Assembly (NCBI GenBank): GCA_039024915.1
Contig: JBCCPK010000007.1
Location: forward strand, 186,001 to 250,000
DNA: 64,000 nt
Source: Pseudomonadota bacterium
Lineage (GTDB): Bacteria > Pseudomonadota > Alphaproteobacteria > Rhizobiales > MH13
Reading direction: 5' to 3'
The position numbers were made by a program, and so were the translations under genes. The notes beneath the pieces are model-generated. The model was not told the origin of the DNA. It was given only the letters and a program-made list of their open reading frames with translations, and did no database searches. Positions within the stretch are counted from its first letter, which is position 1, and the number at the start of each line of letters is the position of its first letter. Shown in pieces: positions 37,801 to 40,884 of this stretch.

Positions 37801-38781
37801 CTAGTTGGTAGACGGTCTGTGGGTCGCCGCAGCGAGGGAGACAGCGACCTCACCGACGTCGCGCGTGCGACCAGCGGTTGCGGGTAGACCCTGCGCATCA
37901 ACAATCTCAAAAGCTGAGGGATCACTGAAAAGCGCTTTGAGCATCATGAAGTTCAAACCGTGCCCACCTTTGTGGGAACGGTAGCACCCTTCAATCGACA
38001 GGCCGGCTAGCGCCAGATCACCAACCGCATCGAGCACCTTGTGCCGTGCAAACTCGTCATTCCAACGCAACCCTTCTGCGTTCATGACACCATCATCAGT
38101 CAAAACAACTGCGTTCTCCAAAGACGATCCAAGCGCAAACTTGTTGGCCCACAGCTGCTCAACGTCTTTAAGGAACCCAAAGGTACGAGCCCGCGCGATC
38201 TCGCTGCGAAAACCCTCTGCCGTCAAATCGAAGGCGACGCACTGCTGGCCGATGCATGACCCTTCATAATCAATTGAGACCTCAAACCGTGAACCGTCGT
38301 AGGGCCGCAGCTCTCCGTAGGCATCGCCCTTCTCAACCCGAACCGGCTTGAGAACGCGTATCATCTTCCGGGAAGCATTCTGGGGGGTAAGACCGACCGC
38401 ATCAATCGCGTGGACAAAAGCCGCTGAGGAACCATCCATGATGGGAACTTCGGGGCCATCAACTTCGATCAACGCGTTGTCGACACCAAGCGCCCGCAGT
38501 GCAGCCAGCAGGTGCTCGACCGTTGAGACAAACGCCCCCTTTGGATCACCAAGAACCGTGCACAGCGCGGTTGCAGAAACCTCTGACCAGCAAGCACGGA
38601 TTTCGTAGTCGCCCTGCCCGCTTAAACCCGTGCGAAGAAAAATGAGCCCGCTGTTCTCATCAGCCGGATGGATCGTCACTGTTGCAGGTGCTGCGCTGTG
38701 CACACCAATGCCCGACAATGAAACCGTATCGGCTACGGTATTTTGGTGGGTGCCAATGCCCGCGGAAGTACCACTTGCCAT
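37801..38781 (-). CDS. lpxC: UDP-3-O-acyl-N-acetylglucosamine deacetylase
   Basis: LpxC performs the committed step of lipid A synthesis. From the ATG at 38779-38781 the 326-residue protein begins MASGTSAGIGTHQNTVADTVSLSGIGVHS. The zinc ligands are H90 (STVEHLLAAL), H247 and D251 (ARHKVLDAVGD), the same set as E. coli H79, H238 and D242. The VDGPEVPIMDGSSAAF block is also typical. A 19-codon longer frame is open but does not fit the family. A CtrA-type box lies about 210 bases upstream, and ftsZ is the next gene upstream on the same strand. Confidence 0.96.
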   Translation of the reverse strand: MASGTSAGIGTHQNTVADTVSLSGIGVHSAAPATVTIHPADENSGLIFLRTGLSGQGDYEIRACWSEVSATALCTVLGDPKGAFVSTVEHLLAALRALGVDNALIEVDGPEVPIMDGSSAAFVHAIDAVGLTPQNASRKMIRVLKPVRVEKGDAYGELRPYDGSRFEVSIDYEGSCIGQQCVAFDLTAEGFRSEIARARTFGFLKDVEQLWANKFALGSSLENAVVLTDDGVMNAEGLRWNDEFARHKVLDAVGDLALAGLSIEGCYRSHKGGHGLNFMMLKALFSDPSAFEIVDAQGLPATAGRTRDVGEVAVSLAAATHRPSTN

Positions 38782-38986
38782 GCAGCGTGTCCTCAACCCG
38801 ACTTCATACTTTATAATCCCCCAGATCAGGGATCTCACAAGGACCAGACAAAGCTCTTACGAGTCAGACGCCGCTCCGAAACTGGCGGCACACTATCTGT
38901 GTGCTGGTCGCGAAAAAAGTCACGCTTTCTTACGCTGTGTTACACAATTCGCTCAAATAGTAACGAATCCAACCCTCTGAAATTAT

Positions 38987-39001
38987 TTAAGAATTTGTTA
39001 A
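38987..39001. promoter_or_regulatory. CtrA-type box TTAA-N7-TTAA
   Basis: TTAAGAATTTGTTAA is a perfect match to the full CtrA recognition pattern known from Caulobacter and related bacteria. It lies in the lpxC upstream region, about 205 bases before its start codon, and about 60 bases after the ftsZ stop. CtrA control of lpxC is an inference from this site. Confidence 0.55.
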
Positions 39002-39003
39002 TG

Positions 39004-39036
39004 GGCGCTGAGCCGTCCTGTGGACATCCCAGCGCC
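39004..39036 (-). repeat. Stem-loop after the ftsZ stop
   Basis: GGCGCTG (39004-39010) pairs with CAGCGCC (39030-39036) and, inside a symmetric 4x4 internal loop, GTCC (39015-39018) pairs with GGAC (39022-39025). It ends 24 bases from the ftsZ stop codon. No clean T run follows on the minus strand, so it may protect or process the ftsZ 3' end rather than terminate. Confidence 0.5.
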
Positions 39037-39059
39037 GCAACTACCGATCATTCAACCCT

Positions 39060-40787
39060 TCATCCGCTCTTGCGTCGGAGGAATGCGGGGATGTCCATAG
39101 CCTCATCTTCAAGCGGCTGACGGGGAGCCGGATTCGGACGACCCAAACCATCATAACCCGGCGATTGAGCAGGATCAGCGGAACGCTGCACGGCCGCCGG
39201 GCGAGCTGGGGCTGCAGGTGTAGGCGCAGGTTTGGGAGCCGCAGATGCGTCCTCCCGCTTGGGCAAACCCACGTTGGCCAGCTTCTTGAGCAAGCCAAGT
39301 GCCCCTTTGTCGCCATCACCGACTTCCTGTGAGGATGCTTTGTGCCGGATCTCGTCCTGCACAATCGCTGGGAGTTCTTCGACACGTGGCATGCGCGGCT
39401 GAACCTGCACGGGACGCGCCGCACTCGTGCGCGCGACAGCCGGAGGTGCAGGTGGCTCAGACCGCATAGGAGCCGCAGTCTCCGGTGCAGGCGCCGCCTC
39501 AATATCGCTTGGCATGTGAGGGACTGGGTTGATGGGCATGATAGACACACCGTCTTGCTCGCTTTCGTGCGCAGTCGGCACAGCCAATTCTCTTTCAATG
39601 CGCTCAATCCGCTCAACAGGCGATACTGAGCGGGCCTCGACGGCAGCAGCAGCGGCAACGGCGGCCTCGGCAGCTCGGCTGATCGCCTCAACCTCAAGGA
39701 CCTCCGCCTCCTCCTCGTGCGACGGCTCAGCTACCTCGTCCTGTGCTTGCGTACGGGTTATCATCGGCACGGCGGGTTGTGTGTTGATTGTCTGACTACG
39801 CGGCATCGCATCGACGCCTTCAAGCATATCCACTCCGGTGGCCACGACCGATACACGGATCATGCCTTCGAGGGTCTCGTCGAAGGTCGCCCCAGTGATG
39901 ATGAGTGCATCTTCATCAACTTCTTCACGAATGCGGTTGGCCGCCTCATCGACCTCAAACAGGCGCAAGTCGTTGCCGCCTGTGATGGAGATCAGCAGAC
40001 CTTTGGCACCAAGCATGGAAACGTCATCAAGCAGAGGATTGGCAATGGCCGCCTCAGCTGCCTGCAGCGCACGCTTGTCACCGGACGCTTCGCCCGTTCC
40101 CATCATCGCCTTGCCCATGCCGCGCATGATTGAGCGAACATCGGCAAAGTCGAGATTGATCAGACCATCCTTCACCATCAGATCGGTAATGCACGCCACC
40201 CCGGAAAACAGCACCTGGTCGGCCATGGCGAACGCGTCGGCAAACGTCGTTTTATCATTGGCAATCCGGAACAGGTTCTGGTTCGGGATTGAGATGAGCG
40301 TGTCGACCTCTTTTTGCAGATCATCGATGCCCTGATCGGCGATCCGCATGCGGTGGCGACCTTCAAAATGGAACGGTTTGGTGACCACGCCAACGGTCAG
40401 AATACCCATTTCTCGCGCCAAGCGAGCAACAACCGGAGCCGCTCCGGTTCCGGTACCGCCACCCATCCCAGCGGTAATGAAAGCCATATGAGCGCCCGAC
40501 AGGTGATCGGTGATCTCATCGAGGACTTCTTCAGCCGCTGCGCGGCCAATTTCCGGCTGCGCGCCGGCGCCTAAGCCCTCGGTGACGGCAACACCCATCT
40601 GAATGATGCGGCTGGCCTTTGAGTTTGTCAGCGCTTGCGCGTCGGTGTTCGCGACGATGAAGTCGACACCCTCCAAGCCAGACTCGATCATGTTGTTGAC
40701 CGCGTTTCCGCCGGCACCGCCGCAGCCAAAGACCACAATCTTCGGCTTCATTTCATGGATGTCAGGAGCTTCCAACTGAATAGGCAT
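39060..40787 (-). CDS. ftsZ: Cell division protein FtsZ
   Basis: FtsZ is the tubulin-like GTPase that forms the Z ring. The 575-residue protein has the GTP motif GGGTGTG (109-115), the T7 loop NLDFADV (211-217) and the C-terminal peptide DIPAFLRRK that binds FtsA. A Pro/Ala/Glu-rich linker of more than 200 residues separates the GTPase core from that peptide, as is common in rhizobia. I chose the ATG at 40785-40787 with GAGGG just upstream; a start five codons earlier is possible. The 200-base ftsA-ftsZ spacer holds strong hairpins (40885-40981). Confidence 0.97.
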
Positions 40788-40884
40788 GGGACCCTCTTTC
40801 ATTCTTCCTTAGACGCGGCGCACAATGGGAAGTCTTGTGGAGCCAGATGTGGTGTCACAACGTGACGGGTTGGGGATAGCCGCA

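Follow-up and report, generated by a model that had tools for sequence, protein, structure and literature searches.

The analyzed window, a stretch of 64 kb, carried the ftsZ and lpxC genes on the minus strand. The gap between the ftsZ stop codon (39060) and the lpxC ATG (38781) was 278 bp. The genes and the features of the gap were as follows.

37801..38781, minus strand: lpxC, 326 aa from the ATG (TIGR00325, 299.5 bits over the listed ORF)
38890..38895, minus strand: predicted −10 hexamer, TAGTGT (conserved TANNNT columns)
38913..38918, minus strand: predicted −35 hexamer, TTTTTT, poor against the order consensus TTGGCN (column counts)
38943-38917, minus strand: lpxC element, three 10-bp repeats GTAACACAGC-GTAAGAAAGC-GTGACTT, OmpR-type by resemblance (pattern, profile)
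38965..38969, either strand: GAATC, a GANTC (CcrM-type) site between the box and the element (pattern match)
38987..39001, minus strand: perfect TTAA-N7-TTAA (CtrA-type box), TTAACAAATTCTTAA (pattern match, shuffles)
39004..39036, minus strand: hairpin after ftsZ with a GC-rich, terminator-like stem and no clear T run (folding)
39060..40802, minus strand: ftsZ (TIGR00065, 392.3 bits)

The sequence at 38987-39001 read TTAAGAATTTGTTAA on the plus strand and TTAACAAATTCTTAA on the lpxC strand, and the TTAA-N7-TTAA pattern is its own reverse complement. It agreed with the consensus exactly, spacing included, and it began 206 nt upstream of the lpxC ATG. The original prediction of a full CtrA-type box at this position was borne out, the exact 15-mer being the sole perfect match in the 64 kb, where 0.11 were expected (mean of 100 dinucleotide shuffles of the window, 11 of which held at least one perfect box). 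Its predicted placement before lpxC and just after ftsZ was also correct, as both neighbors were identified by family models. Boxes with at most one mismatch were at the chance level in the window (5 vs. 4.24 expected). When the intergenic region 38782-39059 was shuffled alone, a perfect box arose in 12 of 4000 trials, and shuffling of the AT-rich part alone (38945-39025) produced one in 22 of 4000. The lpxC box resembled known CtrA boxes in consensus, spacing, intergenic place and the presence of an encoded CtrA. It differed from the box given for Hyphomonas neptunium, TTAA-N7-TTAAC (PMC7200025), in that its lpxC-side half was TTAAA rather than TTAAC.

The CtrA protein was encoded in the genome (L117; NF045991, 429.5 bits vs. 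a cut-off of 350). The whole genome (3.9 Mb, 35 contigs) contained 28 perfect TTAA-N7-TTAA sites vs. 10 for a reversed-pattern control, which indicated that roughly a third of the perfect sites could be due to chance. The corresponding counts in the three congeners were 17 vs. 9, 17 vs. 6, and 14 vs. 12. The ORFs around 26 box loci, two of which represent one double site, were inspected, and 20 neighboring proteins were scanned against family models. The motif was over-represented, and some of its sites were located near CtrA-type targets; the scanned neighbors included a flagellar rod protein, FliX, FlgI, and a FliO-like protein. Two outer-membrane barrels, a porin, a polysaccharide-export protein, and a site-2 protease were also found among the 20, together with proteins showing no evident CtrA link (a transposase, a glycosidase, a blue-light sensor, and others). 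For 14 of the 26 loci, a perfect box was present beside a shared flanking gene in at least one of the three congeners; this count is rough, as its threshold of 40% identity over 50 aa admits paralogues (e.g., L001), and one of the three congeners is 78% complete. The lpxC locus had such a box in none of the three.

Some of the boxes elsewhere in the genome were multiple. At L165 (G000:C4:356913-356949), four TTAA half-sites with an 11-bp period formed three overlapping perfect boxes, and a box was located beside the same genes in one congener. A double overlapping box was found at L010/L011 (G000:C4:21901-21926), and each of the three congeners has a perfect box next to these genes. A single perfect box was situated 54 nt upstream of the site-2 protease gene (L168, G000:C6:198051-198065; Peptidase_M50 with PDZ domains), which is an envelope-stress gene by resemblance.

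At the position of the lpxC box, the congeners carried TAAACAAAATCTTAA (G002), TTGACAGAAAGTTAA (G003), and TTAATCAAAACCTTAA with an 8-bp spacer (G001). None of the three boxes was perfect: two had one mismatch at the same position and the third had the N8 form. The objection raised with the original prediction, that the box might be absent in close relatives, was half sustained. Identities with the window as reference were counted without gaps after alignment on the downstream element. They amounted to 13, 10, and 9 of 15 over the box stretch, to 4, 6, and 3 of the 22 bp beyond the box, and to 20, 25, and 26 of the 43 bp between the box and the element. The counts for the box and the outer flank suggested that conservation starts at the box and that it is moderate.

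Conservation across the order, which had been proposed as a check, was assessed in 137 lpxC promoters within 150 nt upstream of the element. Exact N7 boxes were found in four of them (0.42 expected from shuffles), and exact boxes with other spacers numbered six (N4), three (N5), two (N8), one (N9), and three (N10). With at most one mismatch, there were 21 N7 boxes vs. 8.4 expected, and the spacers of 4, 5, 8, and 9 gave 29, 27, 24, and 25, respectively. Because other spacers were as common as N7, the promoters showed no preference for the CtrA spacing, and the excess was attributed to AT-rich sequence. TTAA was hardly more frequent than AATT at −70 to −31 (25 vs. 22 occurrences, one sequence per genus). 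An order-wide conserved CtrA box was therefore rejected as a general rule.

The box was preceded by the ftsZ hairpin (−26.5 kcal/mol for 80 nt, z −2.75), and only 2 nt separated the end of the hairpin from the box. In scans of 38700-39100, a sigma-70 promoter was not detected; terminator-like sites were called twice, both at 38723-38739, and not at the hairpin (39004-39036). It is possible, if short of probable, that the AT-rich tail following this terminator-like hairpin produced the box as a by-product and that CtrA does not act on it. In families f20 and f42 (e.g., L104, L092, and L094), exact or near boxes began at the foot of the post-ftsZ hairpin: the two exact boxes in f42 (L092, L094) and the one-mismatch boxes in f20 started at, or a few bases from, the foot of the corresponding hairpin. 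This indicated that terminator tails can mimic CtrA boxes, and the roughly 10 of 28 perfect genome sites expected from the reversed control also agree with such an origin. However, a T run is absent from the tail in the window, the 15-bp stretch was better conserved in the genus than the outer flank, and the shuffles of the intergenic region seldom yielded a box.

A CcrM/GcrA link via the GANTC site was also considered and rejected. GANTC was found upstream of the element in 35 of 88 regions vs. 37.6 expected, which showed no enrichment in relatives, and between the element and the gene in 53 of 88 vs. 45.3 expected.

The sequence AAGAAAGCGTGA, some 70 bp downstream of the box, was invariant in all four congeners and extended to three decamers. 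A 27-bp profile of this element was trained on 88 sequences of the order, and a threshold of 15 bits was applied; the best of 200 mononucleotide shuffles, a mild null, scored 3.1. An LpxC match was present in 167 genomes of the order. Among the matches listed, 148 upstream regions were taken; G049 and G085, with matches at contig starts, and 17 genomes beyond the matches listed were omitted. The element scored above 15 bits in 137 of the 148 regions (38 families, 70 genera) and in 49 of the 58 order regions outside the profile training. The 11 regions below the threshold were L048, L102, L221, L228, L237, L252, L260, L261, L263, L264, and L265. Four of these (L102, L221, L228, and L237) belong to family f33, in which the element was located 543 and 593 nt upstream in two other members; in these four regions it may therefore lie beyond the 600-nt limit. 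In other orders of the class, 23 of 28 lpxC loci exceeded 15 bits; these 28 had the best LpxC scores of 116 such genomes with a match, and the figure thus leans to nearer relatives. Those below the threshold were L123, L135, L140, L146 (10.8), and L148 (only 135 nt upstream).

The pattern GTAAN6GTAAN6GTGA had a single exact match in this genome, at lpxC, where the third repeat departs from the usual form (GTGACTT for GTGATTT). A sequence-only profile, R1, was built from 65 of 93 sequences, the other 28, with the most divergent among them, being left out by hand. Its second match in this genome had an E-value of 0.265 and was inside an ORF. R1 gave some match with an E-value of 0.5 or below in 49 of 61 genomes of the order. 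The 34 matches with E of at most 4.4e-4 were all upstream of lpxC, including that in G051. Judged by these searches, the strong form of the element is specific to lpxC. A wider regulon was rejected, as R1 gave nothing else convincing. In the other genomes, 17 weaker matches were not at lpxC, and 14 of them were examined by ORF position and first residues; nine were inside an ORF and five were intergenic. Two of the nine (L301 and L310) were the same gene in one genus, and otherwise no shared gene was seen.

Three decamers, GTAACACTTG GTAACAAAGT GTAACAAAGC, were observed in an intergenic region of G058 (L305, near 1280-1310), a genome outside the set with an LpxC match. Of the 199 order genomes, 32 yielded no LpxC match at E up to 0.001, as did 21 of the 173 good-quality ones. 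This may reflect loss of lipid A synthesis or divergence.

Downstream of the element, TANNNT columns were fixed at +22 to +27 (T 0.72, A 0.64, last T 0.70). Given a 17-bp spacer, the predicted −35 would fall at the end of the element. We infer a transcription start near 38883. The element and the predicted −35 would have the geometry of an activator site abutting the −35, and the element most likely serves the lpxC promoter as its activator site. The direction of regulation, here taken as activation, is predicted in the same way. Relative to this inferred start, the center of the CtrA-type box would be at about −111 and not at the −35. Unlike CtrA boxes that adjoin or overlap the −35 of the promoter they control, it would be located upstream of the inferred −35, and a second promoter beside the box is possible.

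The element resembled the OmpR box in sequence. It shared the tandem GTAACA-type half-sites, the 10-bp period, and the place upstream of a promoter with the E. coli OmpR site TTTTACTTTTGTAACATAT (PMC9712742) and with the predicted OmpR boxes in A. caldus, e.g., GTAACAAGTTGTAACAGGTG (PMC9861516). It differed in having three repeats, the third being GTGATTT, and in that its high-scoring form occurred only at lpxC.

Nine proteins in the genome contained an OmpR-type DNA-binding domain, and eight were scanned, leaving out L120, which is without a receiver-like start. The E. coli OmpR model was the best NCBIfam match for L119 alone of the eight, at 206 bits, which is below the cut-off of 331. When the DNA-binding domain of L119 was searched alone, the best PDB match was E. 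coli OmpR (2.2e-17). Its segment RAIDVQMTRLRR aligned opposite RSIDVQISRLRR in E. coli OmpR, and both are presumably the recognition helix; an OmpR-like regulator with an OmpR-type helix of this kind is thus encoded in the genome. The best PDB matches of the full-length protein were MtrA and RegX3, and we assume that L119 is PetR-like.

All 20 element-bearing genomes searched had an orthologue of L119 (at least 226 bits), whereas the six f6 and two f4 genomes had none. The element was missing in all four f6 genomes assessed (G095, G128, G009, and G059), and in f4 the only matches, taken anywhere in the genome, were weak and partial. In f7, the regulator was present in two of three genomes and the element was missing in all three. 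In f18-g60, all three genomes contained the regulator, and the element was missing in G182, the one assessed of the three (the others being G067 and G102). Thus, of the four genomes without the element in these two groups (G010, G060, G096, and G182), three contained the regulator, the exception being G060 (83% complete). Since these distributions reflect few independent gain or loss events, the assignment is a lead with about an even chance of being right. On this footing, the OmpR-like regulator is the leading candidate binder of the element.

That CenR, ChvI, or NtrX binds the element instead of the OmpR-like protein seems rather unlikely. All three are envelope regulators, and in C. crescentus ChvGI activates and NtrYX represses lpxC, according to a review (PMC12444477). 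However, the ChvI motif, N-GCC-N8-GCC or TTGC-N3-GCAA (PMC9731502), differs from the element, and the account of R. sphaeroides in PMC7240162 gives lpxC without an identified upstream NtrX site. The CenR motif of Rhodobacter sphaeroides, TGA-N8-TGA (PMC9275681), is likewise an OmpR-family tandem repeat upstream of the −35 and shares the GTGA half-site, but its period is 11 bp vs. 10 bp in the element; lpx is not mentioned in the main text of that paper. A CenR orthologue was present in 19 of the 20 element-bearing genomes, being absent from G013 (84% complete), but it was also present in all six f6 genomes, where the element was missing in each of the four assessed. The three regulators were set aside as binders on the misfit of their published motifs and are kept as a rival to the OmpR-like protein.

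Two further systems invite comparison. The CpxR box of E. coli is GTAAA-N5-GTAAA. The element was similar in its 10-bp period and GTAA core and differed at the end of the half-site, which is usually C or G instead of A; CpxR was the best model for none of the eight response regulators scanned in the genome. DVU2934, a response regulator of Desulfovibrio vulgaris, has lpxC as its single target (PMC3333781). This likeness concerns the target, and the organism belongs to another class.

The original prediction also held that CtrA, if it used the box, would time the committed step of lipid A synthesis. Direct timing of lpxC in the cell cycle by CtrA as its main regulator seems quite unlikely, for although the box is perfect, CtrA is encoded, boxes are over-represented with some beside flagellar genes, and the box stretch is locally conserved in congeners, none of the three congeners has a perfect box, the 137 promoters show no N7 preference, and the box is far upstream of the inferred promoter. 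A CtrA site at the lpxC box is still plausible, and CtrA may control lpxC in this genus, though not as a conserved feature of the order. The accompanying remark that a link between CtrA and LPS is not usually stressed was partly true. In B. abortus, CtrA ChIP-seq showed hits at promoters for LPS biosynthesis, as summarized in a review that does not name lpxC in its main text (PMC10787603).

Thus, we propose that lpxC is driven by its own promoter inside the ftsZ-lpxC gap. The core would be a sigma-70 promoter with a weak −35, directly preceded by the three 10-bp repeats (38943-38917). An OmpR-type response regulator probably binds these repeats in tandem and recruits RNA polymerase, and this arrangement of repeats and promoter would be common to most Alphaproteobacteria sampled. 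In this genus, the CtrA-type box further upstream, just after the ftsZ hairpin, would most likely be lineage-specific, serving as a secondary contact for CtrA or as a minor promoter upstream, and it may add a cell-cycle input to lpxC. As a whole, we consider this explanation slightly better than even in probability. The decamer element, rather than the CtrA box, more probably sets lpxC expression.

The control of LpxC levels in alphaproteobacteria is poorly known. For lpxC transcription in the class, section 10 of the review PMC12444477 names only NtrYX and ChvGI, and turnover by Lon has been suggested for the LpxC protein (same review). The decamer element was absent from the titles and abstracts found in the open literature on lpxC regulation in Alphaproteobacteria. 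The CtrA box itself represents a modest, lineage-level hypothesis, and the decamer element is the more interesting object in the gap. Its presence at lpxC in 137 of 148 order genomes and at 23 of 28 loci of other orders (the best LpxC scores of 116) would offer a direct experimental handle on the control of LpxC levels.
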